A stretch of DNA of 64,000 nucleotides from Ferrovibrio terrae (GCF_007197755.1 NZ_CP041636.1:1462001-1526000); one strand, 5' to 3'. Shown: positions 38,656 to 56,850, numbered from the stretch's first letter. Translations and numbers: made by a program. Notes: generated from the sequence alone by a model not told the origin.

Positions 38656-38762
38656 CTGACGCATAAGGTGCAAACGCGAGTTCAAGGACCTTAAGAGTCG
38701 GACATGGCTTTTTGACGACCCTGGCGGCCAACTCCCACTCACCAGACTCGAATTACCATTGT
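38656..38762 (+). repeat. Direct repeat copy A (107 bp)
   Basis: This copy is closely similar to 54660-54768, with a 37-base identical block at the right end and a 22-base identical block in the middle. Relative to copy B it lacks one G and a GCG triplet. On the minus strand copy B could encode a C-terminus ending VVVKKAMSDS-stop, which copy A breaks. It lies in a 353-base gene-free stretch upstream of the sigma factor. Confidence 0.85.
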
Positions 38763-38780: not shown

Positions 38781-38840
38781 TTTAGATTGCGCGGGAATAA
38801 AGCTGGGGTGCGGCATCCCTCGGCGTTTGGGACTGCGCAT

Positions 38841-39353
38841 TTGAAATATACCGGCCCGCTCGACGTCTTTGTTTCCCAGCGTTCCGCGTTGGTCGATTAC
38901 GCGACTCCGATCGTCGGCGACAGGAGCCGGGCGGAAGACGTTGTTCAGGAGGCCTTCCTGCGATACGCCCCGGCGGTCGAGAAGGGCACAGAAGTCGACG
39001 AACCCCTGCGCTACCTGTATCGCATCGTCCGCAACCTCGCCTTCGACCTGCGACGTCGCAAAACGCTGGAAAGGCGCGAGGCAGATAAGGGGCCGGAATG
39101 GTGGATGGTCCCCGCGACGCCCCAGACGCCGGAAGAACAGCTCATAGAGACCGATACGGTTTCCAAGTTCCGGCTGGCGCTGGCCAAGCAGCCTGCGGAG
39201 ATTCGCACCGCCATCGAAATGAACAAATTTGGCGGTCACTCCCTGACGGACGTGGCTGCGCATCTGAATATGCCCCTGACATCTGTCCATCGCCTGGTGG
39301 CGAGGGGCATGGCAGACATCATTGAGGAGCTCGACGGCAGCCCACCGCCATAG
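38841..39353 (+). CDS. FecI-type ECF sigma factor
   Basis: This protein of about 170 residues (start uncertain: TTG 38841, or TTG 38787 giving 188) has sigma-70 region 2 (GDRSRAEDVVQEAFLRYAP, RYLYRIVRNLAFDLRRRK in part) and region 4 (EMNKFGGHSLTDVAAHLNMPLTSVHRLVARG in part), with no other domains. This is the FecI-like iron-starvation ECF class. A FecR gene follows 104 bases later, then a TonB receptor, the classical surface-signalling order. No ATG start with a ribosome site is present, so the 5' end is the weak point. Confidence 0.85.
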   Translation: MKYTGPLDVFVSQRSALVDYATPIVGDRSRAEDVVQEAFLRYAPAVEKGTEVDEPLRYLYRIVRNLAFDLRRRKTLERREADKGPEWWMVPATPQTPEEQLIETDTVSKFRLALAKQPAEIRTAIEMNKFGGHSLTDVAAHLNMPLTSVHRLVARGMADIIEELDGSPPP

Positions 39354-39457
39354 ATTTTGAGTTCAGGCCGCCCCAGCCTGGAAAATACCCCTGAGCCAGA
39401 CGTCATTATGGTAGCGGCACTGCGCCAAACGTAACTCAGGCCTGCGAAACCGGAAAA

Positions 39458-40423
39458 ATGATCAGCACGCCGACCAAGCACCATGTTGAAGAAGCCATGT
39501 CCTGGCTGCTCCGCCTTCAGGAGGCGGAGAGCGATGCGGGACTGCGCGCACAGCACCGTGCCTGGCTGAACAGCGACCCGGTCCACGCGATTGCCTGGCA
39601 GAAGGTGATGAAGGCCTGGTCTGTGGCAGGGAAAGCCGCCGGACCATCGGAGCCATCTGCAGCAGAAACGGACACTGTCGTGCCGTTCGCTGTGCGCAGG
39701 CGGCGTGTCGCTACCTGGGCCGCTGTGGCTGCAGCAGCCTGCATGGCCGTTTTCGTGGCGCCGCAGCTGTGGCAGCGCGCCAGCGCAGATGTCTCGACAC
39801 ACACCGCTGAATTTCGCACCGTTCAGCTGTCGGATGGCAGTACCGTTCAGCTCGGTGCCCAGACCTCGATTTCAGTAGATATCAAGGCTGACAAGCGCTC
39901 GGTTAAACTGCTGGGCGGGCGGGCGTTCTTCGATATCGCCAAGGATGCAAACCGGCCCTTCACTGTTACGGCACGCGATGTCGATATCACTGTGCTGGGG
40001 ACGGCTTTCGATGTGCGCCTGGGCGAGCAGGAGGTATCGGTAGCGGTACAGCGTGGCTCGGTCAGTGTCCGCCGGACTGCCTCGCATTTCGATGAGCGAC
40101 TGTCCGCCGGCGACCAGGTGACGATCGCACCCAAGAGCGGGACGGCGCATATGGCTGCGATCCAGCCATCGGAAGTCGCCGAGTGGCGCGACGGCAAACT
40201 GTCGGCGGTGAAGGTGCCGCTCTCTGAAGTTGTCGCGGAGCTGCGGCGGTATCACAAGGGCTGGATTCTGATCGCCGACGACCGGTTGGGTGCAGAACCG
40301 ATCACCGGCCTGTACGACCTGAAGACTCCCGACCTTGCCCTGAGAGCCATGATGCAGCCGGTGAAGGGCAACATCCTTCAGGTCACTCCTTACCTGACGA
40401 TCCTGTCGAAGCCCGACAAATAG
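39458..40423 (+). CDS. FecR anti-sigma / signal transducer
   Basis: This 321-residue protein has an N-terminal cytosolic DUF4880-like helix region (EEAMSWLLRLQEAESDAG, HAIAWQKVMKAW), one membrane helix about 84-102 (VATWAAVAAAACMAVFVA) and a periplasmic FecR domain (DGSTVQLGAQTSISVDI, GRAFFDIAKDANRPFTVTA). The C-terminus has a secretin/STN-like fold (LYDLKTPDLALRAM). It receives a signal from the loaded TonB receptor and controls the sigma factor. It lies between fecI-like and receptor genes on one strand. Confidence 0.9.
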   Translation: MISTPTKHHVEEAMSWLLRLQEAESDAGLRAQHRAWLNSDPVHAIAWQKVMKAWSVAGKAAGPSEPSAAETDTVVPFAVRRRRVATWAAVAAAACMAVFVAPQLWQRASADVSTHTAEFRTVQLSDGSTVQLGAQTSISVDIKADKRSVKLLGGRAFFDIAKDANRPFTVTARDVDITVLGTAFDVRLGEQEVSVAVQRGSVSVRRTASHFDERLSAGDQVTIAPKSGTAHMAAIQPSEVAEWRDGKLSAVKVPLSEVVAELRRYHKGWILIADDRLGAEPITGLYDLKTPDLALRAMMQPVKGNILQVTPYLTILSKPDK

Positions 40424-40576
40424 CCGCCCCGGCCAGTCTCCCCGGTAAATTCGGGCCGCGCGAAAAAATCTTCTGCAATCTGGAAATCACCTCCGAGCCG
40501 CTCGTCAATCAGTTTGGGTAGACGCGAGTGCATCGCATTTGCGGCGTAACGATTATGCATTTGGGGGATCATTTTT

Positions 40577-43081: not shown

Positions 43082-43084
43082 GCC

Positions 43085-43363
43085 ATGATGGTGGCCCTGG
43101 CACTCGCACTGACCATAGCCGGTTGCGCGTGCCTTTACCTCGCCAGCCCCAATCAACGGTGGCTGGCGCAGGCTTTGCCGGGGAGGCCCGTCCTTGTGGC
43201 GGGCAGCCTGCTGCTGGCGGCCGGCCTTGCCGCATGGATCGCGGCGTTGCAGCCTCTGGCGGGCTTCTTCGTCGCGCTGCATGTCGCCATGGTCTGTCTT
43301 TTCGTCTTTCCCTATTCGGCTGCCCTCCGTAGCCTGGGGCGCAGTCTCGGGCGGAAGAGCTGA
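43085..43363 (+). CDS. DUF3325-like small membrane protein
   Basis: This 92-residue protein has three hydrophobic helices (about 1-22, 36-56, 60-80) and a basic C-terminus (RSLGRSLGRKS). The layout and its place directly after a TonB siderophore receptor (3 bases after its stop) fit DUF3325-like proteins of iron-uptake cassettes. Their role is unclear; they accompany the PepSY-associated proteins. The start is ATG 43085, with a second ATG one codon later. The next small membrane gene begins 1 base after its stop. Confidence 0.75.
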   Translation: MMVALALALTIAGCACLYLASPNQRWLAQALPGRPVLVAGSLLLAAGLAAWIAALQPLAGFFVALHVAMVCLFVFPYSAALRSLGRSLGRKS

Positions 43364-43364
43364 C

Positions 43365-43658
43365 ATGGCTGGCGATATCCGTCCCGACTGGTGGGGGAAG
43401 GCCAGTGCCGGCGTCATCCTCGGCTTCGGCCTGGCGCTCTCGCTGGTCGGCCTCTACGCCTATCTGGGGCCGGGAGGCATAGATGCACCGGGTGGGCGCT
43501 ACTCGTTGATGCGTTATCTGGAAGCGTTCGTCTGGATCTCGGTGTTCAGCTTCTGCTTCCTGTTTCGCAGCGGTCGTTCCGCCTGGGCGTGGCTCGGCGC
43601 GGCGAACCTCATCGCCTTCGCGGCGCTGTTTGCGTGCCGCTTTGTCTTTTTTGCGTGA
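43365..43658 (+). CDS. Small three-helix membrane protein of iron cassette
   Basis: This 97-residue protein has hydrophobic helices near 12-32, 50-66 and 73-95. It has a tryptophan-containing N-terminus (RPDWWGKASAGV) and a SGRSAWAWLGA turn before the last helix. It resembles the small iron-uptake membrane proteins (such as DUF3649) found in the same place in other cassettes, but I cannot confirm the family. It follows the DUF3325-like gene with one base between them and precedes the PepSY gene by 7 bases. It is therefore co-transcribed. Confidence 0.7.
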   Translation: MAGDIRPDWWGKASAGVILGFGLALSLVGLYAYLGPGGIDAPGGRYSLMRYLEAFVWISVFSFCFLFRSGRSAWAWLGAANLIAFAALFACRFVFFA

Positions 43659-43665
43659 GGCCAGC

Positions 43666-45318
43666 ATGATCCGCGCCGATATCGTCAGGCTCTACAAAAC
43701 GGTTCACACATGGACCGGTATTACTTGCGGCTTTTCACTGTTCATCGCTTTCTATGCGGGCGCGCTCACCATGTTTCAGGAGCCCATAGCTCGCTGGGCG
43801 TCGCCGCCGTCCGTGGGGGTGGCCGCGGTTTCTCTGGACAATGCCCCCCGTCTCCTCGAGCTGGTCGCCGCCGCTCATCCTCAGGCGCGTGCGGAAGGTA
43901 TCAAGCTGCATCTGCGGGGCCACGAGAACGAGCCTGCGCGGGTCACCTGGGAGGAGGACGAGCCGCACGAGCCGGGTCAGCCGCATGGGCATGTCCACTG
44001 GTGGGGGACGCTCAATCCAGACGGCAAGCTGCTAGCGAAGCCGGAAGAGCCGTCCGAACTGGCCGAGTTCATCAATGACATCCACATGCGCGTCGGGATA
44101 CCGAGGCCGTGGGGATCGTATTTTATGGGGGTGATCTCGCTGCTCTACGGTGTGGCGCTGATCGCAGGCGTCATCACGCTGCTGCCGTCGCTTGTGAAGG
44201 ATTTTCTTGAGCTGCGTGTCGGCAAAAACCTCAAGCGCATGTGGCTGGATGCCCACAATGTCGTTGGAATTACCGCACTCCCGTTTCACATCGCGATCGC
44301 GATCACTGCGACCGCATTGAGCCTCAGCAGCCCGCTCTGGTCCGCACAGGAGCGTGTGATTTTCGGCGGCAAGCAGGCCATCCTGGACGATCAGGAAAAT
44401 GAGCCGCGCAGAGCGCCCAAGCCGATCGGCGAGGCGGGTGTGATGATGCCGCCCGTGCAGTTGCTGCAAAAACTCAAGGAGCAGGTGCCCGATCTCGAGC
44501 CCCGCTTCCTGGTTTTCAAGAATTTCGGCGACAAGGCCGCTTCGGTGAGAGTCCCCGGACGGGAGCGCGGCTATGTGGGAGATTACCATCTTGGCGGCGT
44601 GATGCTCAGCGCCGTGACCGGCGAATTGCTCAACGACCTCACCCGTCCAGCGCGCCAGGATCCGGATCGTCGTGCGGCAGAGACATTCTACGGCCTGCAT
44701 GCCGGGCATTATGAGGGGGCGACAGTTACGTGGGCGTACTTCTTACTGGGCCTCTCCGGAGCGTGGCTGTTTTACAGCGGTAATCTGCTCTGGATCGAGA
44801 CGCGCCGGAAGACTGCCCGCAAGGGCGGCGAGGTCGAACAGTCGCGCTCGACGCGCCTCCTGGGCAGCGCGACCGTAGGTGTGTGTCTCGGCTGCGTGGC
44901 GGGTATCTCGCTCACCATTGTCGCGGCCAAATGGCTGCATGGTCGCGTGGACGATCTCAACCACTGGCATGAGCTGATCTATTACGCCGTGTTCCTTGGC
45001 TCGATCGCATGGGCCTTTGCCTCGGGCGCGGCGCGCTCGGCCGTCCATCTGCTGTGGCTGTGCGCCGCCGCGACGGTAGCGATCCCGCTGACAACGCTGA
45101 CGGCACTCCTGTTTCCGACACTCGGCATGTGGGCGCATGGCAGCATTGCCACCATCGGCGTCGATGTGGTTGCCTTCGTCGGCGCGCTCTGCTTCGCATG
45201 GATGGCAGTCGCCACCCGGCGTCGCATCACGACCGGTCCCGCCGATAGCATCTGGTCCGTCCGTAAGGCGGACGCGGCCACACCGCCGCGTGAGCCTGCC
45301 GCTGTCGCGGCCGAATGA
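43666..45318 (+). CDS. PepSY-associated membrane protein (iron-reductase-like)
   Basis: This 550-residue protein has an N-terminal helix (KTVHTWTGITCGFSLFIAFYAGAL in part), then PepSY-type periplasmic regions separated by further helices (about 148-175, 205-230, 360-385 and several near the end). Typical family sequences are HTWTG, DIHMRVGIP, WLDAHNVVGI and YGLHAGHYEG, with conserved His that may hold haem. PepSY_TM proteins near TonB receptors are thought to reduce ferric siderophores after import. I used ATG 43666. It is the last gene of the iron cassette. Confidence 0.85.
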   Translation: MIRADIVRLYKTVHTWTGITCGFSLFIAFYAGALTMFQEPIARWASPPSVGVAAVSLDNAPRLLELVAAAHPQARAEGIKLHLRGHENEPARVTWEEDEPHEPGQPHGHVHWWGTLNPDGKLLAKPEEPSELAEFINDIHMRVGIPRPWGSYFMGVISLLYGVALIAGVITLLPSLVKDFLELRVGKNLKRMWLDAHNVVGITALPFHIAIAITATALSLSSPLWSAQERVIFGGKQAILDDQENEPRRAPKPIGEAGVMMPPVQLLQKLKEQVPDLEPRFLVFKNFGDKAASVRVPGRERGYVGDYHLGGVMLSAVTGELLNDLTRPARQDPDRRAAETFYGLHAGHYEGATVTWAYFLLGLSGAWLFYSGNLLWIETRRKTARKGGEVEQSRSTRLLGSATVGVCLGCVAGISLTIVAAKWLHGRVDDLNHWHELIYYAVFLGSIAWAFASGAARSAVHLLWLCAAATVAIPLTTLTALLFPTLGMWAHGSIATIGVDVVAFVGALCFAWMAVATRRRITTGPADSIWSVRKADAATPPREPAAVAAE

Positions 45319-45545: not shown

Positions 45546-45749
45546 ATGAAGACTCTTGTCGCGATACTCACCGCCGCCGTGCTGTTTGCCGCGCCTATGA
45601 GTCATGCCGAGACCCGAACCGCCACCCCGGCCATTGGCCTGGCCCCGGTGAAGACTTCGCAAATCTGTGCAGCGTTAAAAACATCTCAGATGTCGTGTGA
45701 GGCATTAAGTGAGCACAGTGCAGCTAAGGCTGATCCTGTGTGCAGTTAA
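45546..45749 (+). CDS. Small exported protein with three cysteines
   Basis: This 67-residue protein has a clear signal peptide (MKTLVAILTAAVLFAAPMSHA, cleavage near residue 21 before ETRT). The mature part has about 46 residues with three cysteines (SQICAAL, MSCEAL, PVCS). AGAGGAA lies upstream at good spacing. A 227-base AT-rich stretch separates it from the PepSY gene and probably holds its promoter. I do not recognise it. Secreted small Cys proteins can be metal-binding or toxin-like, but nothing more can be supported. Confidence 0.6.
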   Translation: MKTLVAILTAAVLFAAPMSHAETRTATPAIGLAPVKTSQICAALKTSQMSCEALSEHSAAKADPVCS

Positions 45750-45976
45750 GATTTGAACATGGGCTTACGCCTAAGGCTTGGCCGGAATATGGCGAAGCCC
45801 TCCCGAGTCTGGGTACGAAGCCAGCATTCCAGGGGCTGGTGCTGCTTTTCCACCGGAAAAGCACGCGATCCAGATCTATTACAATTCAAGATCTGGAATA
45901 GATGTCCTGATGTCGCCGCCACTTTTGAGTGACACGGCGCCATACAGAATCGTGCCGATGGGTCTATTGGCGGACT

Positions 45977-47077
45977 TCAGTCCGAAAGCACGGACAATGC
46001 GTAAGTCTCAAACTGTTCAATTATCACTCGATTCTGATTCAATACCAGGCGCCGCCACAGGGGTGAGCACGGATCGTACTCCTCGCGAAGCGCGTTCTTG
46101 ATGGTCTTCGTCTCAGAGGCGTGCCAGTCAAGCTGACCCGGCTTCCGATGCAGATAGCTGTCCTGCCTGAGGATGCCTCCAGCCAATGTCATAGGGTAGG
46201 TGCCGAACTCAAGGGCAAGCAGATAGGCGCGATCGCAACCAACCCTCTCCCAGAGTTCCGAACCAAGGCCTGTCTGCGGCGGAGTAACCGCGCCGTCCGA
46301 TCGTTGAGATGTGAGCCAGGAGCCGAAAAGCGTTTTGGCAAGACGATAACGTATTCCCGTCGGTTGACCGAGGTAGATTGGCTCGCAATAGCCGAAGGGG
46401 CCCGCGCCAGTGTGGTAGTCCAAAACCACGACATTTGCGCGGTCAACCAAGGCATAATCCTTGATTACAGCTTCGACGATCAACCTCGATGCCGATGGTC
46501 GCAGGCCGCCGTAGTGCAGACCATCAGGAAACTCATACTGCCCCGCAGAACGAGCCGTCAGGACGGCGCGCGACCCGTATTTTTCAGCGGCCCGGTCGAT
46601 AGCAGCATTAGATTCAGACAAACCTGCGCCACTCAGATCACGAAGCAACAGGTCCGCATGGATGTCGCGGTAGAGGTCGTTCCGCGGCAGCGCGGCATCG
46701 AAGTCAATATAGTTGCGGTTCAGGTCGATGTTGTCTTCGGTTTCGCGTCGGCCCCATGCAGAGCCCCACGGATTTACGGCATGGATGAGGCAGAAGGCCC
46801 AGCTATCGGGTACGCGGCCATGCAGGAGAATGTCAATCATACAGGCCGAGCCGCAGTAAAGCTCGACGCCATGCGTGCCGCTCTGCAATACCAGAATGTT
46901 CCTGGCGTCAGTCCTTCCAAGCCACACCACGTCTGTCGTCAATCGCTCGCCTAACGGGCCTGTGGTGCTGTGCGCGTATTCACGATGCTGCCCACCTGCA
47001 ATCGCGGCCGCGTGCAGGAACTTTTGACGGGCGTCGCTGTAATCAAGCGAGAAAAAGCGTTCGACTGGCGACTTCAT
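45977..47077 (-). CDS. DUF2817 (M14-like) zinc metallopeptidase
   Basis: This 366-residue protein belongs to the DUF2817 branch of zinc carboxypeptidase-like enzymes. The metal motif H69-x-x-E72 sits in QSGTHGVELYCGSA. AVNPWGSAWGRRETEDNIDLNRNY (in part) is the family block, and the third ligand is probably the His in LDYHTGAGPFGY. It probably cleaves an amide or peptide bond of a small substrate in the cytoplasm; no signal peptide is seen. GAGGAAC precedes the ATG. It is divergent from the DUF3100 permease, 328 bases away, so both may serve the same substrate. Confidence 0.82.
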   Translation of the reverse strand: MKSPVERFFSLDYSDARQKFLHAAAIAGGQHREYAHSTTGPLGERLTTDVVWLGRTDARNILVLQSGTHGVELYCGSACMIDILLHGRVPDSWAFCLIHAVNPWGSAWGRRETEDNIDLNRNYIDFDAALPRNDLYRDIHADLLLRDLSGAGLSESNAAIDRAAEKYGSRAVLTARSAGQYEFPDGLHYGGLRPSASRLIVEAVIKDYALVDRANVVVLDYHTGAGPFGYCEPIYLGQPTGIRYRLAKTLFGSWLTSQRSDGAVTPPQTGLGSELWERVGCDRAYLLALEFGTYPMTLAGGILRQDSYLHRKPGQLDWHASETKTIKNALREEYDPCSPLWRRLVLNQNRVIIEQFETYALSVLSD

Positions 47078-47405
47078 GAAGGTTCCTCAGCGATGACAGC
47101 GGCTGCCGCTTGTAAGCGACAGGCTCTTAGGTTGCGGAAGGTTGATCCGTACCTGCATGGAGCCCTTCGGCACGCTCTTATCGTCGAGGTTGCCACTCTG
47201 CCTGGTTCGTCTCACCCTGCATAGACGGTATTGGCGAGATGCAGATCTGGTCTTGGACAGAAGTGTACCGAGACGCATTCGCTTACCGGCATCTGGGTTC
47301 CTTCCATCCAAGACGCTCCGTTTTGTTGCAGCCATCGTCATGGACACAATGAGGGTGGGATGGGACCGCCCCATAACGATTTTGCTCAAAACAGAGGGGG
47401 TAGAG
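47078..47405. other. Divergent promoter region between DUF2817 and DUF3100 genes
   Basis: A 328-base stretch lies between the two divergent starts. Open frames exist on both strands, but they have no ribosome site and mixed composition. It should contain both promoters. The last 12 bases contain AGGGGG, the ribosome site of the DUF3100 gene. I see no clear palindrome. Confidence 0.4.
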
Positions 47406-48746
47406 ATGGAAGCTCAATTCACAACAGTGTCACGAGACACTTCGTGGTTACGATTGGCCGCACTATTTGTGTGCGCGAGCATCTGTGTCATCATTGCGGA
47501 AATCGCCGGCCCGCTGACTATTCCGCTGGGTGGCGCCTACAAGGTCACCCTGTTGCCGTTTCTCTGGGCGCTGCTGATCGGGGCAGTGTGGGGCACGGTT
47601 TCCACACGCCTTCCGCCTTTTATGAAGGTAGACAACTCCATCCAGCGTCTGGCAAGCGCGGCGCTTCAATTCGCACTCCTACTGTTCATCGCAAAACTGG
47701 GCCTGCTCGTAGGAGGGTCTCTGCCAAAAATCCTGACGGCAGGCTGGGCACTGGCCTTCCAGGAGTTCGGTCACTTCTTCGGAACTGCAGTTATCGGCCT
47801 ACCGATCGCTCTACTGCTGGGCATCAAGCGTGAGGCCATCGGCGCTACATTCTCCGTGGGGCGCGAACCCAGTCTGGCGATCATCGGTGAGCGGTATGGG
47901 ATGTCGAGCCCGGAGGGTCACGGTGTTCTGGCTGAATACATCACCGGAACGGTCTTTGGTGCAGTCTTTATCTCCATCTTTGCCTCACTCGTGACCAGCC
48001 TGAACATTTTCCATCCCCATGCACTGGCTATGGGCGCCGGTATGGGTTCGGGCAGCCTTATGGCTGCGGCTGCAGGTGCCATTTCTGCTCAGCAGACGCC
48101 TGAAATGGCCAAGGAAGTTGCCGCTTTCGCTGCCGCCAGTAACCTGATTACGACCACGATCGGCACGTATTTCACGCTGTTCCTGTCACTGCCGTTCACC
48201 GTCTGGGCGTACAAGGTGCTGGAGCCTATCCTGGGGCGCGGCAAAGGACAGCCTGTGGAGGCTACACCTGCGTTCACCCAGAGCGAACAGGTCGTAGATA
48301 AGCCGGAAGCGCTTTCCATCCCGCAAATTCTCACTCTCTGGCTGGGCGTGGGCGTCATTGGTTTGGCGGCTAATTACATCGCCTTCAAGACTGTGCCTGA
48401 TGCTGTGACGGTCAGCGGCATGGGCATCATTCTGGGCTGCGTCGTGGTGGGCTATATTCTGTATAAGCTCGCCCGCGGCGTCCTCCCGGCAGTGTTGTGG
48501 GTTTCGCTGGTTGCGATGGCCCTGACCTATCCCGGCACGCCGTTCGCTGCCGAAACCGTCGCCATGACCGGGAAAATCAGCTTCCTGGCGCTGGCCACGC
48601 CAGTCATCGCGTTGGCAGGTCTTTCGATTGCCAAGGATCTGCCGGTATTCCGCCGTCTCGGCTGGCGTATTGTCGTGGTGTCGCTGGCAGCAAATGCCGG
48701 GACGTTCCTGGGGGGTGCGTTCGTGGCGCAGTTCTTCATGCACTGA
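47406..48746 (+). CDS. DUF3100 multi-pass membrane protein (candidate permease)
   Basis: This 446-residue protein has about 11 hydrophobic helices. Typical stretches are IAEIAGPLTIPLGGAYKVTLLPFLWALLIGAVWG (in part), GREPSLAIIGERYG and the Gly/Ser/Ala-rich AMGAGMGSGSLMAAAAGAISA in the centre. The last resembles the reentrant substrate loop of glutamate/citrate-type symporters. I identify it as DUF3100-like. No transport substrate is known to me. AGGGGG precedes ATG 47406. It is convergent with the AraC gene and divergent from the DUF2817 gene, which suggests import of the amino acid or peptide handled by this cluster. Confidence 0.75.
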   Translation: MEAQFTTVSRDTSWLRLAALFVCASICVIIAEIAGPLTIPLGGAYKVTLLPFLWALLIGAVWGTVSTRLPPFMKVDNSIQRLASAALQFALLLFIAKLGLLVGGSLPKILTAGWALAFQEFGHFFGTAVIGLPIALLLGIKREAIGATFSVGREPSLAIIGERYGMSSPEGHGVLAEYITGTVFGAVFISIFASLVTSLNIFHPHALAMGAGMGSGSLMAAAAGAISAQQTPEMAKEVAAFAAASNLITTTIGTYFTLFLSLPFTVWAYKVLEPILGRGKGQPVEATPAFTQSEQVVDKPEALSIPQILTLWLGVGVIGLAANYIAFKTVPDAVTVSGMGIILGCVVVGYILYKLARGVLPAVLWVSLVAMALTYPGTPFAAETVAMTGKISFLALATPVIALAGLSIAKDLPVFRRLGWRIVVVSLAANAGTFLGGAFVAQFFMH

Positions 48747-48759
48747 CGCGACGCACGCA

Positions 48760-49479
48760 TCACTGCCTGGTGGTAGTTCTCACTGCGTATGCATGCTCGG
48801 AGGTCCGCGGCGCCGTAACCCAGGCGCCGCGGAACGCTCCAGGCGTAAAGCCGTAGGTCCGTACCAGTTCCCGGCTCAGATGAGCCTGATCGTAGAAGCC
48901 AGCTTCCAAAGCGGCGTCCACAATCGGCAGGCCGCTCTTTAGCATCGATTTGGCGTGGTGAAGGGCGACCAGCACGTGGAAATCATGCAGGCCTGTTCCA
49001 ACCTCGTGGCGGAACCGCCGCGACAGATAGCCTTTGGAAATCGCGCAGGCTTCGGCAATCTGAGCGACATCGGTGCGCAGTGAGCCGCGCCTGGACAATA
49101 AGGCTTTTACGCGCTCCACCAGCGCGCCATCCGGTCCACGATTGAGGCCGTCCAATTTGTAATCGTCGGGCACCACGAACTCGGAGACAAAACTCCAGCC
49201 GTGAGAATCCAGTGGCTCGAAGCGGTGAATGACCCCAGCCGGGACAATGACTTTCTCGCCAGCTTCAACTCTCCGGCCGACGCTCCCAATTCTCAGGAAT
49301 GCACATCCTTCCAGCATATGCACCACTTCATCGCCGAGATGATAGTGCGGACGGAACGACCAGACACTGCGAGTACCCGCGATGATTTCCCGATACCTCC
49401 CTTTAGTGAAGTCCACCGACAGGGAGGTGCGTGGCGCTGGCCGTGCCGCCGACACTGCCGAGGAAGTCAGAGTTTCCAT
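48760..49479 (-). CDS. AraC-family regulator with N-terminal cupin sensor
   Basis: This 239-residue protein has a small cupin-like domain (about 40-110, PHYHLGDEVVHMLEGCAFL and VPAGVIHRFEPLDSHGW in part) followed by an AraC double HTH (about 135-230, IAEACAISKGYLSRRFRHEVG and DAALEAGFYDQAHLSRELVRTYGFTPGAFR in part). This is the LysR-independent amino-acid/sugar-sensing AraC layout. It is the last gene on the minus strand of the amino-acid cluster, ending close to the convergent DUF3100 gene. It probably regulates this cluster. Confidence 0.85.
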   Translation of the reverse strand: METLTSSAVSAARPAPRTSLSVDFTKGRYREIIAGTRSVWSFRPHYHLGDEVVHMLEGCAFLRIGSVGRRVEAGEKVIVPAGVIHRFEPLDSHGWSFVSEFVVPDDYKLDGLNRGPDGALVERVKALLSRRGSLRTDVAQIAEACAISKGYLSRRFRHEVGTGLHDFHVLVALHHAKSMLKSGLPIVDAALEAGFYDQAHLSRELVRTYGFTPGAFRGAWVTAPRTSEHAYAVRTTTRQ

Positions 49480-49507
49480 TGTATGGCTAGGTCTGCTTTT
49501 GGAGCTT

Positions 49508-49627
49508 TCACCCCTTGATGTCGGTGACGAACATCTTTCCGGGCGACTGAACAGCGGTATTGCGTTTGAAATCGCCGCTGCGGCAGGCCAGCCGCAAGGC
49601 CAGGGGTGTGTCGAAGTTCTGGAACAT
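49508..49627 (-). CDS. Possible 39-residue peptide of the amino-acid operon
   Basis: A 39-codon frame starts 14 bases after the dehydratase stop, behind GGAGG, and ends before the AraC gene. It begins MFQNFDTPLALRLACRSG and ends FVTDIKG. The spacing and the ribosome site suggest it is translated, though it may be a remnant of a longer gene. The stretch LACRSGDF recalls N-termini of DUF1445 hydro-lyase-like proteins, but this is only a faint resemblance and no domain is complete. Confidence 0.4.
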   Translation of the reverse strand: MFQNFDTPLALRLACRSGDFKRNTAVQSPGKMFVTDIKG

Positions 49628-49641
49628 TTGTCCTCCCAGGA

Positions 49642-50565
49642 TCAGGCCGCTTGCGCCACGTCGTGGCGCCAGCCTTCGAGCAGCGACGCGCTGGTGCTGG
49701 CACCGCCGCAGACAATGACGACGACATCCTTGGCGTTTGCGATGAGTGGATGATTAAGATAGGCAACCGCCAGTGAGACACCGCAAGCGGGCTCGACCAG
49801 TTGCCGCATGTCGTCGGCAAACCGGACCGCACCAGATAGCGCTTCGGCATCGGACAGGATGGCCGGTCGATAGCGGAACCGGCCAATCTGCTCGACTGGC
49901 CATGCGGCGACTTCACCTGCGGCCAGGCAGCCGCAAACCGTGTCCAGCGGGAAGTTTACGGGACGCCCGGCCGCGACCGCTGCGGCAAAGGAAGCCGAGC
50001 CGGTCGTCTCGCAGCCAATGACATCGACGTCATGTCGCTTGTGGCGATCCAGGCCGACCATAAGACCGGCAAGAAGGCCACCGCCGCCAATCGCGGTTAC
50101 CAGAGCATCGAACTCGGGTTTCTCCTCGATGATTTCGTCAATCATCGTCGAGTGCCCGCGCCAGAGTGTCGGATGGTCGAACGCCGGGACCAGCTCCACA
50201 TGCTCACCCTTGGCCAGTTGCTGGGCCAGCGCATTGGCTTCGTCCCAGACAGCTCCATGCACGGTGACGCTGGCACCGAGGGAAGCGATGATTTCGCGAG
50301 TCACGGCAGGTGTGGATTTCGGAACGATGATACTGCACTTGATGCCGAGCTTCTTGGCGGCAAAAGCGACCGCGACACCGGCATTGCCGCCCGAGGGGCA
50401 GATGAACTCAGTCTTCCCGGCCCTGGCCGCTTCCTCGCAAAGCAGGCCGATGCCGCGCAGCTTGAAGGAACCACTGGGCTGAAGGTTTTCGAGCTTGAGC
50501 CAGATCCGTCGTTCGGACGTGGACAGGCCGTGATGGAGGACGAGCGGAGTGCGGATGTGAAGCAT
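49642..50565 (-). CDS. Serine/threonine dehydratase-like PLP enzyme
   Basis: This 307-residue fold-type II PLP enzyme resembles mammalian-type L-serine dehydratase or threonine ammonia-lyase. The cofactor Lys is K35 in PSGSFKLRG, the phosphate-binding PSGGNAG lies near 57-63, and the glycine loop GGGGLLAG lies near 168-175. The C-terminal regulatory domain of biosynthetic IlvA is absent. It deaminates a beta-hydroxy or related amino acid to a 2-keto acid; the exact substrate, including D-isomers, cannot be told. It sits 12 bases after the DadA-like gene on the minus strand. Confidence 0.85.
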   Translation of the reverse strand: MLHIRTPLVLHHGLSTSERRIWLKLENLQPSGSFKLRGIGLLCEEAARAGKTEFICPSGGNAGVAVAFAAKKLGIKCSIIVPKSTPAVTREIIASLGASVTVHGAVWDEANALAQQLAKGEHVELVPAFDHPTLWRGHSTMIDEIIEEKPEFDALVTAIGGGGLLAGLMVGLDRHKRHDVDVIGCETTGSASFAAAVAAGRPVNFPLDTVCGCLAAGEVAAWPVEQIGRFRYRPAILSDAEALSGAVRFADDMRQLVEPACGVSLAVAYLNHPLIANAKDVVVIVCGGASTSASLLEGWRHDVAQAA

Positions 50566-50577
50566 ACTGGAACTCCA

Positions 50578-51834
50578 TTAAGCAAAGCGTGCGGGTGAGA
50601 ACGGCGCGACATCAATGCGCGGATTGGCCCCAGTCATCTGGGCCGCCAGCAGCTCGCCGGTGACCGGACCAAGCGTGAAGCCCTGGTGGCCGTGGCCGAA
50701 GGCGCACCACATGCCATCCTGGCCAGGTATCCGACCGAAGACGGGCTTCATGTCCGGCATGCAGGGCCGTGCGCCCATCCAGGGTTCGGCATCCAGCCGA
50801 TCGCCCAATGGGAACACGTCGCGAGCGATCGCTTCGGCATTGGCCAACTGACTGGGGGTGCGGGTAGCATCCACATGCGCCAGTTCTGCTCCAGTGGTGA
50901 GACGCAGGCCCGCCTTCATCGGGCAGACGACGTAGCCCATCTCGGCGTCGATCACCCAGTTGTTGAGAGGCCGGTCATCCTGCCTGGCGTAATGCATGTG
51001 ATAGCCGCGCTTGGCGAACATCGGCGGCCTGTACCCGAACCTGGAGGTCAGTTCCGTGCTCCATGGACCAAGGGCAATGACAACCTTTTCGCCTTCAACG
51101 GTGCTCCGATCATTGAGGGTGATCCTCCAGGCATCCGGACGCAGACGGGTGAGCGATTTGGCATCGCCAAGGAGTACTTGGCCGCCCTCCTTCTCGAACA
51201 GGCGTGCATAGGCCTGCACCAGATCGCCCGGGCTTTTGATCGCCAGCGGATCGGTCCACTGAATCGCGCCAGCGAACTCACGCTTGAGGTGTGGTTCTGC
51301 CTTTGCCACATCCGCGGCAGTGAGCTTCAGGTGGCTGACTCCCAGCTTCGCCCGCGCGTCGGCCTTTTCGAAGAACTTGTGCAGCTCGCGCTCGGTACGG
51401 AACAGGGTCAGGTAGCCCTTACCAGCGATCAGCTCTTCCGCATCGGCCTGCTCGATCAGTTCGGCATGGGTCTCGATGGAGCGGGCGATAAGCGTCTTAT
51501 ACTCGCGGGAAATCTCGGCATGCCGCTTCGGTGCGGATTGCACAAAATACGAGAACAGCGGTCCGGCCAATTGCAGGACTGCGTCCAGGTGATAGCGGAC
51601 ATCAATCCGCCGGTTCATCGCTCCGGAGATCAGGAAGCCGAGGTCGCGCGGCAGCTCGTAAGGCTCGGTTGCCTCGAACTGGACAAGCCCTGAGTTGCCG
51701 AACGATGTCTCCAGCCCAGGTGCGCGGCGGTCGACCAAGGCGACCGACAGCCCCCTGCGCTGCAAATGTAACGCGCAGCTGACGCCCACCATGCCCGCGC
51801 CAAGTACGATCACGTCATGCTTCATATCTGGCAT
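50578..51834 (-). CDS. DadA-like FAD amino-acid dehydrogenase
   Basis: This 418-residue flavoprotein of the DAO/DadA family has an N-terminal Rossmann motif VLGAGMVGVSCALHLQRRG (FAD). The catalytic region SNSGLVQ-like is SFGNSGLVQFE. The C-terminal FAD block is MWCAFGHGHQGFTLGPVTGEL. DadA oxidises D-amino acids to keto acids with electrons going to the respiratory chain. Other family members act on sarcosine or hydroxyproline, so the substrate is unsure. No ribosome site stands out; M1 or M4 may be the start. It lies between the SGNH gene and the dehydratase in a tight operon. Confidence 0.87.
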   Translation of the reverse strand: MPDMKHDVIVLGAGMVGVSCALHLQRRGLSVALVDRRAPGLETSFGNSGLVQFEATEPYELPRDLGFLISGAMNRRIDVRYHLDAVLQLAGPLFSYFVQSAPKRHAEISREYKTLIARSIETHAELIEQADAEELIAGKGYLTLFRTERELHKFFEKADARAKLGVSHLKLTAADVAKAEPHLKREFAGAIQWTDPLAIKSPGDLVQAYARLFEKEGGQVLLGDAKSLTRLRPDAWRITLNDRSTVEGEKVVIALGPWSTELTSRFGYRPPMFAKRGYHMHYARQDDRPLNNWVIDAEMGYVVCPMKAGLRLTTGAELAHVDATRTPSQLANAEAIARDVFPLGDRLDAEPWMGARPCMPDMKPVFGRIPGQDGMWCAFGHGHQGFTLGPVTGELLAAQMTGANPRIDVAPFSPARFA

Positions 51835-51842
51835 GGCGGTAG

Positions 51843-52490
51843 TCAGCTTCGATTGACGATGTCGGCGACGATCGGGGCCAAGGCCTTGCCGATGGCGATA
51901 TGCTGGTCGGCGTCCAAGTGAATGCCATCGACCTTGCTGCCGCCCGTCACGCTGTTGACGTCGAAGAAGTGGACCGACTTCAGCTGGGCCATTTCCTTAA
52001 GCGCAGGCGCGAAGCCCTTGTTGCGCTCCACAGCGCCTTCGAACTTCTGCACGTTGGCGCCCTTGGGCTCCTCGATTGCAGGCGGCGCCAGCACCAGGAT
52101 CTCCGGACGAGGCATGCCGGGCTCAATGGGGGCCTGGCGGATGATGTCGACCAGCTTGCCGACACCGGCGGCTGCACCCCACGCCTTGATATCGTGGGTG
52201 GCCTGGAAGTCGTTGGTACCGAGCTGGATGATGACCAGGGCCAATGGAGAGTTGATTTCGATGACCTCCCCCAGCGCCACCGAGCCGTTGCGGCCCGGCC
52301 GGAATGGGTCGTCCCACAGGGTCTTACGGCCTGCCAGGCTGTTCTCGATGACCCGGACGTCCTGCTTCCCGTCGCCATTCAGGGCAATCTCAAGGACACC
52401 GGGCCAACGCTGATCGAAGGGGAATCTGTCACGGGTGCCGGGCACCATGCCCCAACCCACACTGTCGCTATAAACTAGAATCTGTTTCAT
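51843..52490 (-). CDS. SGNH/GDSL-family hydrolase
   Basis: This 215-residue SGNH hydrolase has block I YSDSVGWGM (GDS-like, Ser nucleophile), block III LVIIQLGTND (Gly/Asn oxyanion), and a C-terminal DGIHLDADQH (block V, Asp and His). No signal peptide is seen, so it is cytosolic. Members hydrolyse acyl esters or O-acetyl groups on sugars and amino acids. In this operon it may remove an acyl or lactone group before oxidation. ATG 52490 is used; the track of bases allows a GTG one codon earlier. It is the first gene of the minus-strand operon. Confidence 0.83.
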   Translation of the reverse strand: MKQILVYSDSVGWGMVPGTRDRFPFDQRWPGVLEIALNGDGKQDVRVIENSLAGRKTLWDDPFRPGRNGSVALGEVIEINSPLALVIIQLGTNDFQATHDIKAWGAAAGVGKLVDIIRQAPIEPGMPRPEILVLAPPAIEEPKGANVQKFEGAVERNKGFAPALKEMAQLKSVHFFDVNSVTGGSKVDGIHLDADQHIAIGKALAPIVADIVNRS

Positions 52491-52532
52491 CACCCACTGC
52501 CTTTCTGTTGGCTTGGGCGGAGCATAATATCT

Positions 52533-52574
52533 GTGACACTTTGTTCAAAACATTATAGTGTCACGATACACTTT
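52533..52574. promoter_or_regulatory. Likely MocR operator (direct and inverted repeats)
   Basis: ACACTTT occurs at 52536-52542 and 52568-52574, 32 bases apart (about three turns). GTGACACT (52533-52540) and AGTGTCAC (52557-52564) form an inverted pair. The region lies between the divergent SGNH operon and MocR gene. MocR/GabR/PdxR-type regulators bind direct repeats. Confidence 0.5.
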
Positions 52575-52656
52575 TAAGGAAATCACGGAAAATAGGTCTA
52601 GTCGATGAGATGCTTCTGCAAAAATTTCGATATGATTTTTAGACGCTGAGGTGTCG

Positions 52657-54012
52657 ATGCGTAAGAAGCCCACCTGGATGCCACGCCTTTCGGGAATCGA
52701 AGGGACGCCCTGCGATCGCCTCGTCACGGCAATGGCTGAAGACATCGTCGAGGGACGGATTGAGGCGAATTCCCGCCTGCCGCCCCATCGTGAATTGGCG
52801 ATTGCGCTTGGCCTGGGGCTGGGGACCGTGACCAAGGCCTATGGCCTTCTTGAACGTCGCGGCCTGACCCGGACTGTCAAGGGTAGCGGTACCTTCGTCG
52901 CTCTGTCGCATTCCAGAAGCGGGCCGACGATAGACCTGTCACGGAATGTGCCGCCCGCCATCATGACCGAGCGCGTGTTGGCGCGCACAATGTCAGCGCT
53001 GGCCAAGCGACCTGATTCTCACCTGTTCAACAGCTATCCACCGGCCGCGGGGCACGACGAATATCGGCGCCAGATGGCGCACTGGTATTCCCGCCTTGGA
53101 ATGGATGCAGATCCGCGCAGGCTCATGCTGACCAGTGGCGCGCATCATGCGCTGGCGGTCGCCCTGTCCGTAGCGGCGGGTCCGCAGGGGCATCTGTTGG
53201 TCGAATCTCACACTTATCCCGGCGCGATCGCCCTGGCCCGCTACCAGGGACTGAAGCTTGTGGGAGTGGAAGCCGATGACGACGGTATGAGCGCGGACGC
53301 ATTGGATCGGGCTCTACACGGCATTCGGGAAAGCAAACGTGCGCTGTATGTAACGCCAACAATGCAGAACCCGACCACAACAACGATGAGTCTGTCCCGC
53401 CGCAAGGCCATCGTGCGGGTTTGCATTGAGCACGATGTTCAAATCATCGAGGACGATGTCTATTCTCTGGGTGGCGCTCCCGCATTGCCTCCGCTGGCAA
53501 TGCTTGCACCTGAGCGCACACTTTACGTCAACGGTTTGTCCAAGACGCTATGTCCGTCCCTGCGGATTGGCGGCCTGGTGACCCCTCCTTCACTGTATGC
53601 GCAGGCCGAGAACATCCTTCAGGTCACCTCCTTGATGGTGTCGTCCGCCAGTTGTGCGGTGATGGAGCAATGGATGCTGGATGGCACGGCAGACGCCGTC
53701 AGTGCATCCATTCGCGAGGAGTCCCGGCGCAGGTATGCCGTGGCTCGGACATACCTAGGAGATGCCATGAAGGAACCCGATCATGTGGGCTTTCACCTAT
53801 GGCTTCCCATGGAGCGGTCGACGGCCCGGCTATTTGAAGAGGAGGCGAAAGCTCTTGGCGTCATCGTGACGCCAGCCGATTCCACAGCAGTCGGCCCCGA
53901 TGTTGCAAAGGGCGGCATCCGGCTCTGCATCGGGGCGGTCTCGCAAGCTGAGCTCCAAACAGCCCTGCCAGCACTCTCGGCTCTGATGACAAAAATGAGC
54001 AAAGAGGTGTGA
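52657..54012 (+). CDS. MocR-type GntR/aminotransferase regulator
   Basis: This 451-residue regulator has an N-terminal GntR winged helix (about 15-80; GRIEANSRLPPHRELAIALGLGLGTVTKAY in part) fused to a fold-type I PLP aminotransferase domain. The latter has TSGAHHALAVAL, TPTMQNPTT, EDDVYSLG and the Schiff-base lysine K296 in NGLSKTLCPSLRIGG. MocR regulators sense an amino acid through PLP. It is divergent from the SGNH-DadA-dehydratase operon and probably controls it. ATG 52657 is preceded by GAGG; a GTG two codons earlier is the alternative. Confidence 0.88.
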   Translation: MRKKPTWMPRLSGIEGTPCDRLVTAMAEDIVEGRIEANSRLPPHRELAIALGLGLGTVTKAYGLLERRGLTRTVKGSGTFVALSHSRSGPTIDLSRNVPPAIMTERVLARTMSALAKRPDSHLFNSYPPAAGHDEYRRQMAHWYSRLGMDADPRRLMLTSGAHHALAVALSVAAGPQGHLLVESHTYPGAIALARYQGLKLVGVEADDDGMSADALDRALHGIRESKRALYVTPTMQNPTTTTMSLSRRKAIVRVCIEHDVQIIEDDVYSLGGAPALPPLAMLAPERTLYVNGLSKTLCPSLRIGGLVTPPSLYAQAENILQVTSLMVSSASCAVMEQWMLDGTADAVSASIREESRRRYAVARTYLGDAMKEPDHVGFHLWLPMERSTARLFEEEAKALGVIVTPADSTAVGPDVAKGGIRLCIGAVSQAELQTALPALSALMTKMSKEV

Positions 54013-54081
54013 ACTGTACAAGACGGCAATTCGAGAATGATGGCCGATTAACCGATTGCCATGATTCGAGAGTAGGCCGGC

Positions 54082-54579
54082 ATGTCCGCATCCACCAATT
54101 CCACACGTGATAGGATTCTGAATCTGCTGAATGAGAATCAGGCCCGATATCAGCAGATGAGTCACGAGGCGCTGGGTTTCACCTCCGATGAGGTCGCCAG
54201 GGTCCGGAATGTTGAGCTGGGCCAATGTTCAAAGGCCGCTATCCTGAAAATCAAAGGGAATGGCGTCAGAAAGTATGTGCTGGCTGTCTTGCCCGGAGAC
54301 AGGAAGATCAACACCGACAAGCTGTCGAGCCTGTACGGGGGGAAGAAGGCCTCATTTGCCTCTGCCGGCGAAGTGCTGGAACTGACGTCTTGTGTTCCAG
54401 GTGCGCTGGCCCCGTTCAGCTTCAACGAGGAACTGGCGCTGGTGGTGGACCCAAGCATCTTTGAACGGTATTCGGAGATAGCTTTCAACGCTGGCACGCT
54501 GACTGAAACCATCGTGCTGAATGTCGACGATTATCGCAGAATCGTGAAACCGAAAGAGTACAGCCTCATCCAAGATTAG
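54082..54579 (+). CDS. YbaK/ProX-type aminoacyl-tRNA deacylase-like protein
   Basis: This 165-residue protein is of the YbaK/INS superfamily. Family marks are the C-terminal editing-domain sequence GKKASFASAGEVLELTSCVPGALAPFSF (in part), the lysine in DRKINTDKL, and CSKAAILKIKGNG in the first half. Such proteins hydrolyse wrongly charged aminoacyl-tRNA (Ala-tRNAPro, Cys-tRNAPro and others). It follows the MocR gene by 69 bases on the same strand. Near an amino-acid catabolic cluster it may protect translation from a misincorporated substrate analogue. That role is inference. Confidence 0.82.
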   Translation: MSASTNSTRDRILNLLNENQARYQQMSHEALGFTSDEVARVRNVELGQCSKAAILKIKGNGVRKYVLAVLPGDRKINTDKLSSLYGGKKASFASAGEVLELTSCVPGALAPFSFNEELALVVDPSIFERYSEIAFNAGTLTETIVLNVDDYRRIVKPKEYSLIQD

Positions 54580-54659
54580 TTGGATAGGGTCCGGTCGGCC
54601 AGCTATTCCCCATACGCTGTATAATCAGATGCGGCGTCCGATTCGCTTGTCGCAACTGA

Positions 54660-54768
54660 CTGACGCATAAGATGCAGACTGGAGCGGTGACCTTAAGAGT
54701 CGGACATGGCCTTTTTGACGACCACGGCGGCGGCCAACTCCCACTCACCAGACTCGAATTACCATTGT
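54660..54768 (+). repeat. Direct repeat copy B (109 bp)
   Basis: This is the counterpart of 38656-38762, same orientation, about 16 kb away. On the minus strand it opens WELAAAVVVKKAMSDS and then stops, the look of a C-terminal coding remnant. The 37 bases at the right end are identical to copy A. Its origin is unknown. Confidence 0.85.
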
Positions 54769-54861: not shown

Positions 54862-55902
54862 TTAGCGTCGGACTTCGGCCAGCGCCGCGCGGAATTCCTT
54901 CAGCACCTGGCTGCCGGGTTTGCCGCGCTTGTCGAGGCCATCAGCCCATTCATTGGCGACCTCGGCCGAGATGTCGTCGAACGGCTTACGTTCGGCGGCA
55001 GTCAGCGTGTGGTACTTCACGCCTGCCTCGGCCAGCTTGGCCTGCATGTGGCCGATATTGGCATCGATCACCTTGCAGATATTCATCGTCGCGGCTTCGC
55101 CGGCATCCTTCATGATCTTCTGCACGTCCTTGGGCAGCTTGTTCCACACCGCGTCGCTGACCACATAGGAGGCCACGAAGCTGCCGAAGTTGCCGCCCTT
55201 GGTGCCGAACTTCGTGAAGCTCTGCAGGTCGTAGGACATCACGCTTTCATTTGGGAAAATCAGGCCGTCCAGCGTGCCGCGTGACAGCGATTCACGCGCT
55301 TCGGGCGCGGCCATGCGCACCGGAATCGCACCGATCTTGCGGGCGAAGATGTCCATTGCACCGCCGGTGCTGCGCAGTTTCAGGCCTTTGACGTCATCGA
55401 CCGTGCGCACCTGTTTCGACGTGGTGTAGAACTGATAGGGCTCGAGCACGATGGCAAACAGCGGCCGCACCTTGTTGGCGCTGAACTCCTGCTTGGTCAT
55501 CGTCTCGCCATGGGCGATCTTCCAGTAGGCCTTGGTGCCTTCGCAGGCAGTGGTGAAGCTGCCCGGCAACTGCGCCACGCTGGAGAGCGGCATCTTGTCG
55601 GAGACATACGACATGCCGACATAGCCGATATCCGCCACGCCGGTCTGGGTCAGGTTGAGCAGATCCGGCGCCTTGCCGAGCTGCTGGGCCGGGAAATACT
55701 CGAACTTGACCTGGCCGTTGGTTTTCTTGGTCACTTCTTCCATCCAGGGAAGGGTGGCCGTGCCGGGAATGAAATGGCCGGTGGGGAAAGAGTCGGCGAC
55801 GCGCAAGGTAATCGTCTTGCCGCTCTGGGCGAGGGCAGTGCCGCCCAGCAGCGCGGTGCCGGCGGCAACCGCCGTGACCAGCATATGTATGTATTTCTGC
55901 AT
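54862..55902 (-). CDS. TRAP transporter periplasmic binding protein (DctP)
   Basis: This 346-residue protein has a signal peptide (residues 1-25, VTAVAAGTALLGGTALA) followed by a DctP solute-binding domain. Family motifs are ITLRVADSFPTGHF, NGQVKFEYFPAQQLGKA and VRTVDDVKGLKLRSTGG (in part), which includes the Arg that pairs with the ligand carboxylate, and GTLDGLIFPNESV. It binds a carboxylate for the DctQM pair at the far end of the divergent operon. The start is ATG 55902 with GGAGGAAAC in front; a longer frame adds 15 residues. A hairpin terminator follows. Confidence 0.9.
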   Translation of the reverse strand: MQKYIHMLVTAVAAGTALLGGTALAQSGKTITLRVADSFPTGHFIPGTATLPWMEEVTKKTNGQVKFEYFPAQQLGKAPDLLNLTQTGVADIGYVGMSYVSDKMPLSSVAQLPGSFTTACEGTKAYWKIAHGETMTKQEFSANKVRPLFAIVLEPYQFYTTSKQVRTVDDVKGLKLRSTGGAMDIFARKIGAIPVRMAAPEARESLSRGTLDGLIFPNESVMSYDLQSFTKFGTKGGNFGSFVASYVVSDAVWNKLPKDVQKIMKDAGEAATMNICKVIDANIGHMQAKLAEAGVKYHTLTAAERKPFDDISAEVANEWADGLDKRGKPGSQVLKEFRAALAEVRR

Positions 55903-55993
55903 GTTTCCTCCGGTGATCCGCTCATCGAGTCGGTTGTGTTTGGCCATAGCCTCGCGGCATATTCGGCGTCGTACATCAGAAAACGGTACCTAC

Positions 55994-56009
55994 GTTCCGA
56001 TATTGGAAT
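55994..56009. promoter_or_regulatory. IclR operator copy 1
   Basis: GTTCCGATATTGGAAT is an imperfect 16-bp palindrome, 14 bases before the IclR start and in the region shared with the divergent DctP gene. It differs from the perfect palindrome at 56957-56972 at two bases (5' half G for A, and last base). Confidence 0.65.
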
Positions 56010-56022
56010 TATATTCGAAAAT

Positions 56023-56850
56023 ATGAACAGCACAACCAGAGATTCTGACAGCGATGGCCGTGCGCCCGAGGGGCCCCGGTCTCCGCTGCGTGTGATGCAG
56101 GCGCTTGAGGAACTGGCCGCCAGCAAGGATGGCCTGACCCTGACCCGCCTGAGTGAGCGGTTGCAGACGCCGAAAACCAGCCTTCTCAATCTGTTGCGCT
56201 CGCTCGAGGCGGGCGCTTATGTCACCCAGGTCAACGGGCATTACCAGCTGGGGGCGAATGCGCTGCGGCTTGGTGCGCTGATCGGCACGCGCCTGACCCC
56301 GGAATCTTCAATTTCGGCAAAACTGCATCCGCTGCTGGCCGAGATGATGGAGCAGGCCGAGGACACCACACTGCTTGGCGTGATGGGCGACGATCGACGT
56401 CACGGCGTCTATGTAGACATCATCGAAAGCCGTGGCGCGATCCGCTTCAGTTCGCTGATCGGCACCAGGCGGCCGCTATTTTGCTCGGCTTTCGGCAAGA
56501 CATTGCTGGCTTTCCAGCCAGCAGCGCATATCGATGCCTACTTGAAGGACACCGATCTGGTGTTGCCCAATGGCGGCCGGCGCCTGCATCCTGAAGAGGT
56601 GCGGGGCAGTCTCGCCGCGATCCGGGCCACCGGCGTCAGCGCCTCCTACGAGGAGATCGTCGAAGGTGCGGGCGGTGTGTCGTCGCCGGTCTACGATCGC
56701 AATGGTGTTGTCGTCGCGGTGTTTGCCATTGCGGCACCGATCGCGCGCCTGAAGGCACGGCATGACCGGCTCGCCGGGCTGGTACACGCTTTCGGCGACC
56801 GCGCGTCGCGCCTGCTCGGCTATATCGGACCTTACCCCGGCAAGGCCTGA
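56023..56850 (+). CDS. IclR-family transcriptional regulator
   Basis: This 275-residue protein has an N-terminal winged HTH (about 20-85; PLRVMQALEELAASKDGLTLTRLSERLQTPKTSLLNLLRSLEA in part) and a C-terminal IclR effector domain (IRFSSLIGTRRPLFCSAFGKTLLAF, RRLHPEEVRGSLAAIRATGVSASYEE in part). The order and spacing are standard for the family. It lies between divergent DctP and the CoA operon. A palindrome before its own gene and one at the operon promoter suggest it represses both and is released by a pathway intermediate. ATG 56023 is used; a much longer upstream frame covers the DctP gene and is not real. Confidence 0.9.
   Translation: MNSTTRDSDSDGRAPEGPRSPLRVMQALEELAASKDGLTLTRLSERLQTPKTSLLNLLRSLEAGAYVTQVNGHYQLGANALRLGALIGTRLTPESSISAKLHPLLAEMMEQAEDTTLLGVMGDDRRHGVYVDIIESRGAIRFSSLIGTRRPLFCSAFGKTLLAFQPAAHIDAYLKDTDLVLPNGGRRLHPEEVRGSLAAIRATGVSASYEEIVEGAGGVSSPVYDRNGVVVAVFAIAAPIARLKARHDRLAGLVHAFGDRASRLLGYIGPYPGKA

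Follow-up and report, generated by a model that had tools for sequence, protein, structure and literature searches.

Two Adjacent Gene Modules, One Putatively of the Serine/Threonine Class, in a Strain-Specific Segment of the Ferrovibrio terrae Genome

Introduction

The genome of Ferrovibrio terrae, probably an alphaproteobacterium, is a single contig of 4.26 Mb, and the window considered here is a stretch of 64,000 nucleotides from it (GCF_007197755.1, NZ_CP041636.1:1462001-1526000; positions are counted from its first letter). Between positions 45,977 and 54,579 lie genes for a DUF2817 protein, a DUF3100 membrane protein, a dehydratase of the PALP family, a DadA-like flavoenzyme, an SGNH hydrolase, a MocR regulator and a tRNA deacylase, and the question raised by this locus is whether they make up one pathway under one regulator. 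A preliminary description had answered in the affirmative, that is, it read the genes as a single MocR-controlled route for the degradation of an unusual, possibly acylated or D-configured amino acid, with the deacylase as built-in self-protection. According to gene calls and family scans, all the genes that it named are real, lie inside this interval and have intact catalytic or active-site motifs, but its list was incomplete, as a gene for an AraC-family regulator with a cupin domain (ninth gene) had been overlooked.

The region consists of two adjacent modules rather than one regulon, both of which lie inside a strain-specific segment. The right module carries the SGNH, DadA-like, PALP, MocR and deacylase genes, and the left module carries the DUF2817, DUF3100 and AraC genes. 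The explanation that we favour, with moderate confidence, is that the two are separately regulated, the right one serving the catabolism of an amino acid of the serine/threonine type and the left one import and hydrolysis.

The MocR Regulator and Its Predicted Operator

The regulator combines a GntR-type winged helix-turn-helix domain with a fold-type I aminotransferase domain, whose pyridoxal phosphate (PLP) lysine is found in the motif NGLSK; this domain pair, the PLP lysine and the direct/inverted repeat layout of the operator are those of the MocR/GabR family. A layout reported for MocR operators has the direct half-sites two or three helical turns apart, in GabR with an inverted repeat between them (PMC5320631). 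In the divergent region between the SGNH and MocR genes, a predicted operator of about 41 bp reads GTGACACTT-N15-AGTGTCAC, directly followed by GATACACTT, with half-sites of the GTGACACT type (GTGACACT-N16-AGTGTCAC); its direct half-sites are 32 bp apart and the inverted half-site is placed between them. The core pattern occurs only once in the whole genome, and a relaxed match was obtained in none of five shuffles of the window. Moreover, the three half-sites recur beside eight MocR homologues (S. meliloti, Chelatococcus, Prescottella, Gluconobacter, three Tistrella-type genomes and L038), where the spacing of the direct half-sites is nearly constant at 32-34 bp. The homologues bearing the operator are about 39% or more identical to the MocR of the window, and the operator is not present beside four more distant relatives (32-39% identity).

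The SGNH, DadA-like and PALP genes are transcribed divergently from the MocR gene and can be taken as one operon, because the intergenic gaps are just 8 bp (SGNH-DadA) and 12 bp (DadA-PALP); on the other side, the deacylase gene follows MocR after 69 bp. The divergent promoter of these genes contains the conserved operator, which supports control of the oxidase, the dehydratase and the esterase by MocR. One regulon for the whole region is not supported, as the operator was not found at the DUF2817, DUF3100 or AraC genes.

In other genomes the same operator mostly serves a different gene. A LysE-type exporter is encoded by the divergent gene in Chelatococcus, Prescottella and L038, and in S. 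meliloti, a variant form, LysE comes after MocR; in these pairs the MocR clade and the operator are the same, and the exporter stands where the window has SGNH-DadA-PALP. Because of this exchange, MocR and its operator appear as a conserved unit, which is joined here to degradative genes. The MocR-LysE pair with the GTGACACT-type operator recurs in alphaproteobacteria and in one actinobacterium (L094, L095, L142, L038).

The exporters also bear on the purpose of the right module. A tentative and rather doubtful alternative is that the module is for detoxification and not for nutrition, answering an excess of serine, threonine or a toxic beta-hydroxy analogue in place of a LysE exporter; it overlaps with the favoured explanation, having the same parts and another purpose. 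It agrees with the LysE exporters of four relatives, which lie under this operator or next to it, and with a deacylase that acts as a fidelity factor, but two degradative enzymes and an esterase suit consumption equally well, and a toxic substrate was not identified.

The Dehydratase, the tRNA Deacylase and Their Partners

The PALP protein is, as far as its sequence can tell, an L-serine/L-threonine dehydratase of the SDS/SDSL type. Among solved structures, SDSL and SDS are closest to it (1e-65 to 1e-51; 2rkb, 4h27, 1pwe, 1p5j and 5c3u), and it has the motifs GSFK, with the PLP lysine, and SGGNAG. In serine racemase, Ser84 is the catalytic serine on the re-face. The aligned residue in PALP is the Gly in SGGNAG, on which ground a role of PALP as a racemase feeding the DadA-like enzyme was rejected.

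The tRNA_edit protein is 44-45% identical to YeaK of E. coli, whose gene is its sole match in whole E. coli chromosomes, and Lys51 (K51), the conserved lysine of the editing site, is invariant in the alignment. YeaK is ProXp-ST1 (PMC7603204), and ProXp-ST1 and ProXp-ST2 hydrolyse Ser- and Thr-tRNAs (PMC11295145); the deacylase of the window is thus assigned to the ProXp-ST1 class, with a Ser-/Thr-tRNA activity predicted by family. The preliminary description had called it YbaK-like; YbaK proper (Cys-tRNA(Pro) deacylase) was rejected, with 52.8 bits against a cut-off of 153 for TIGR00011 and 19.9 against 243 for NF007951.

Since PALP and the deacylase share an amino-acid class under one regulator, the right module points to amino acids of the serine/threonine type, and this pairing is the strongest hint at the substrate that we infer. 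The suggested self-protection gains support in the same indirect manner, from a ProXp-ST1 (Ser/Thr-tRNA) class deacylase beside a dehydratase of the Ser/Thr class.

The DadA-like protein, with the motif GAGMVG, is a member of the DAO superfamily; it does not pass the curated model of the DadA subfamily (NCBIfam NF001933, 158 bits against a cut-off of 383), and its relatives adjoin genes for D-aminoacylase, carbamoylase, hydantoinase, RidA or ornithine cyclodeaminase. The SGNH hydrolase has the motifs SDS, GTND and DGIH and resembles the arylesterases 3dci, 4tx1 and 2q0q.

Related deacylase genes were also seen in other surroundings. On plasmid p_4 of Rhizobium lusitanum (L092:11455-22935), a YbaK/ProXp-ST1-like gene stands amid genes for a polyketide synthase, an AMP-binding protein, a methyltransferase and a diaminopimelate-decarboxylase-like protein, a context that suggests another deacylase for self-protection, in a biosynthetic cluster. 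A homologue on pSCAT (L137) was considered as FthB, which was not supported; its neighbour is an amidohydrolase and not a transaldolase.

The Left Module

The DUF2817 protein has the M14-type residues H69xxE72, the motif DLNRN, H222 and E290, so that the zinc ligands and the catalytic Glu are present, and it is predicted from these motifs to be an M14-type amidase; MpaA is the only structural hint (E=0.22). DUF3100 is a probable importer, to judge from its sequence. Its single-sequence structure model reached a pLDDT (predicted local distance difference test) of 44 and was useless for the fold, and no viral relatives of it were found. In the window and several other bacteria DUF3100 is a single protein of about 450 aa, a fusion of what is often encoded by two neighbouring genes, one of about 270 aa and one of about 150 aa (L148, L149, L150, L157 and L158).

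An M20 amidohydrolase occurs within 5 kb of DUF3100 at 14 of 23 loci against 0 of 47 control loci, and the same figures (14/23 and 0/47) were obtained for a 3-hydroxyisobutyrate-dehydrogenase-like gene; when the loci that supplied the reference proteins are left out, the counts are 10/19 and 13/22, respectively. The DUF3100 loci are not independent, and the Fisher value of 4e-9 overstates the association. No M20 gene is found among the annotated genes beside the DUF3100 of the window, where DUF2817 takes its place, and the locus does not belong to the DUF3100/M20 units proper. Since DUF3100 repeatedly neighbours M20 amidohydrolases elsewhere, the analogy suggests that the left module imports and splits an N-acylated amino acid or a small peptide, with DUF2817 replacing M20. 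As for the regulator of this module, only two plasmid relatives of the AraC protein were found at E<1e-20, one beside DUF3100 and amidohydrolases and the other beside an M20 aminoacylase. Elsewhere, relatives of DUF3100 and AraC thus form part of another module, one linked to amidohydrolases, which also speaks against a single regulon.

These neighbourhoods have to be weighed against the reading as a single pathway, in which a D-amino acid or an acylated one would be imported by DUF3100, unmasked by DUF2817 and SGNH and degraded by DadA and PALP, with MocR in control of everything and the deacylase protecting translation. The two modules are contiguous within the same strain-specific segment, and two DUF3100 loci, on plasmids of Klebsiella and Agrobacterium leguminum, carry an M20 aminoacylase together with an L-serine ammonia-lyase, a logic like that of DUF3100, DUF2817 and a serine dehydratase. 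A consensus promoter and terminator scan, which gave no more matches than in shuffled sequence, placed no terminator between PALP and AraC. Against this stand the single occurrence of the MocR operator core in the genome, with none at DUF3100/DUF2817, the AraC regulator that the left module has of its own, and the co-occurrence of related AraC, DUF3100 and amidohydrolase genes without PALP, DadA or MocR. The single pathway is therefore considered unlikely.

Proposed Mechanism and Its Weighing

In the favoured explanation of two modules, MocR with bound PLP would sense the free amino acid and act through its operator on the divergent SGNH-DadA-PALP operon and on its own mocR-deacylase operon. 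PALP would deaminate beta-hydroxy amino acids of the L-serine/L-threonine type to 2-oxo acids, the DadA-like flavoenzyme may oxidise the D-form or a related amino acid, and SGNH may take off an ester group; during an excess of the amino acid, the ProXp-ST1-like protein would clear tRNAs mischarged with serine, threonine or an analogue. In the left module, DUF3100 would import and DUF2817 would hydrolyse an N-acylated amino acid or small peptide under the control of AraC, and this module may or may not feed the right one. The most elaborate form of the proposal, namely that MocR runs the catabolism of a non-protein amino acid resembling serine or threonine, which may be of the D-form or O-acylated, that a dedicated ProXp-ST1-type deacylase safeguards translation and that DUF3100/DUF2817 feed the system by import and unmasking, is to be regarded as improbable in its entirety.

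Several observations weigh against the explanation as a whole. First of all, DadA-like and SGNH have no substrate assignment, and YeaK-type deacylases are also found apart from any catabolic cluster, e.g., in E. coli. Because the operator in the homologues mostly serves a LysE exporter, the ligand of MocR is not fixed by its neighbours here. No further DUF2817-DUF3100 pair was seen among the 23 DUF3100 loci. Finally, the searches covered DadA (own order, with a sample of 18 genomes, the class, and the order of G416), PALP (phylum), MocR (class), AraC (class), DUF3100 (two samples) and plasmids, and they gave no other locus with PALP, DadA, SGNH and MocR together, so that the exact set cannot be called conserved.

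The same searches bear on the view that the neighbourhood is a mosaic, in which genes from different donors act on unrelated substrates and their proximity is incidental. The closest relatives indeed differ from gene to gene, being from Variovorax for SGNH, a Pseudomonadota genome for PALP, Sinorhizobium for MocR and enterobacteria for the deacylase, and none of them has the same neighbourhood. The very short intergenic gaps and the conserved operator between SGNH and MocR argue the other way, and little probability is given to a mosaic.

Comparison with Known Systems

The preliminary description knew of no described pathway with such a set. A precedent for the general idea does exist in the canavanine utilisation clusters with CtdA of Pseudomonas canavaninivorans and Rhizobium leguminosarum (PMC10018355), which follow the same logic: an amino-acid catabolic cluster with an adjoining stand-alone tRNA deacylase guards translation from the substrate. 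The combination in the window is a variation on this theme. CtdA has a B3/4 domain and acts on canavanyl-tRNA(Arg), whereas the window has a tRNA_edit protein (INS family, ProXp-ST1-like, PF04073 and not B3/4), enzymes of the Ser/Thr class and MocR control, and no gamma-lyase is found among its annotated genes. FthB, a fluorothreonyl-tRNA deacylase related to ProXp-ST1 (PMC11295145), is similar as a deacylase of this type for tRNA charged with a threonine analogue, but it comes from fluorothreonine-producing bacteria and lies outside any catabolic cluster.

In the EnuR/EhuR ectoine regulons, a MocR protein governs an operon with EutB, which is like a threonine dehydratase (PMC8739950, PMC5320631). 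The likeness lies in MocR together with a dehydratase-like enzyme, and EhuR is the top-scoring NCBIfam model for the MocR of the window. As an identity it was rejected: the score of 360 bits is under the cut-off of 480, the operator is of the GTGACACT type and not the ATTGT-N6-ACAAT of EnuR, and there is no ectoine hydrolase among the annotated genes of the cluster. The DUF3100 and M20 aminoacylase units of E. coli, Klebsiella, Agrobacterium plasmids and Burkholderiales likewise combine a probable importer with an adjoining amide hydrolase and sometimes a serine ammonia-lyase, and differ in that the hydrolase of the window is DUF2817 (M14-like).

For ProXp-ST1-type deacylases, activity in vitro is known and the cellular need is less clear. 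A ProXp-ST1-like gene predicted in a regulon with a Ser/Thr dehydratase behind a defined operator makes the trigger testable; if the most elaborate form of the proposal is true, the system would be a Ser/Thr-class counterpart of canavanine/CtdA and would give ProXp-ST1 a physiological substrate. In addition, a MocR clade that adjoins exporter genes in other genomes is given an operator of about 41 bp. The membrane proteins of the DUF3100 family, whose function is unknown, are tied in many bacteria to amide hydrolases, and this tie suggests concrete substrates for testing.

Gene Layout and Genomic Setting

The coordinates of the features are collected in Table 1. The likely starts of DUF3100, SGNH and MocR are the ATG codons at 47406, 52490 and 52657, respectively, as derived from the sequence and homologues. 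No known RNAs, including riboswitches, were found at 36-58 kb.

Table 1. Features of the two modules and their right border, in window coordinates.
Feature	Position	Strand	Evidence
DUF2817 protein, left module	45977-47077	-	PF10994 E=1e-84; M14-type zinc amidase/carboxypeptidase motifs
DUF3100 membrane protein, left module	about 47406-48746	+	PF11299 E=8e-87; about 10 hydrophobic segments by hydropathy
AraC-family regulator with cupin domain, left module	48760-49479	-	HTH_18 4e-16; Cupin_2 2e-6
PALP, third gene of right operon	49642-50565	-	PF00291 5e-67
DadA-like flavin adenine dinucleotide (FAD) D-amino-acid dehydrogenase/oxidase (DAO), second gene of right operon	50578-51834	-	PF01266 5e-62
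SGNH/GDSL arylesterase-like hydrolase, first gene of right operon	51843-52490	-	PF13472 2e-10
Predicted MocR operator	52533-52573		three half-sites; core once in genome
MocR/GabR-type PLP-dependent regulator	52657-54012	+	GntR + Aminotran_1_2
tRNA_edit protein, ProXp-ST1 (YeaK)-like aminoacyl-tRNA deacylase	54082-54579	+	PF04073 1e-26
Right copy of about 117-bp direct repeat	54652-54768		other copy 38648-38762

Rightward of about 54,805 the window is syntenic with the congeners that have a long match, at 77-86% identity, and from 40,500 to about 54,805 these congeners have no match at that locus. Because the synteny stops at about 54,805 and no relative of the DadA-like protein was found at E<1e-60 in nine congeners, the cluster sits within a strain-specific segment with its right end there. 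The left flank of the congeners maps to another place, so that the right edge alone of the segment is placed. The DctP and IclR genes at 54862-56850 belong to the genus backbone, outside the cluster.

The copies of the direct repeat are 85% identical, and 37 bp separate the right one from the synteny break. The 16-kb block between them holds genes for an extracytoplasmic function (ECF) sigma factor, FecR, a TonB receptor and a PepSY protein, in addition to the cluster. The first four form a set of the surface-signalling iron-uptake type (ECF sigma factor, FecR, STN-TonB receptor and PepSY_TM; 38787-45318), which adjoins the cluster on its left in the same segment. An intergenic stretch of about 107 bp at 45691-45798 is 88% identical to a site in a congener (G012:C77), in contrast to the sequence around it, and is possibly a dispersed element.

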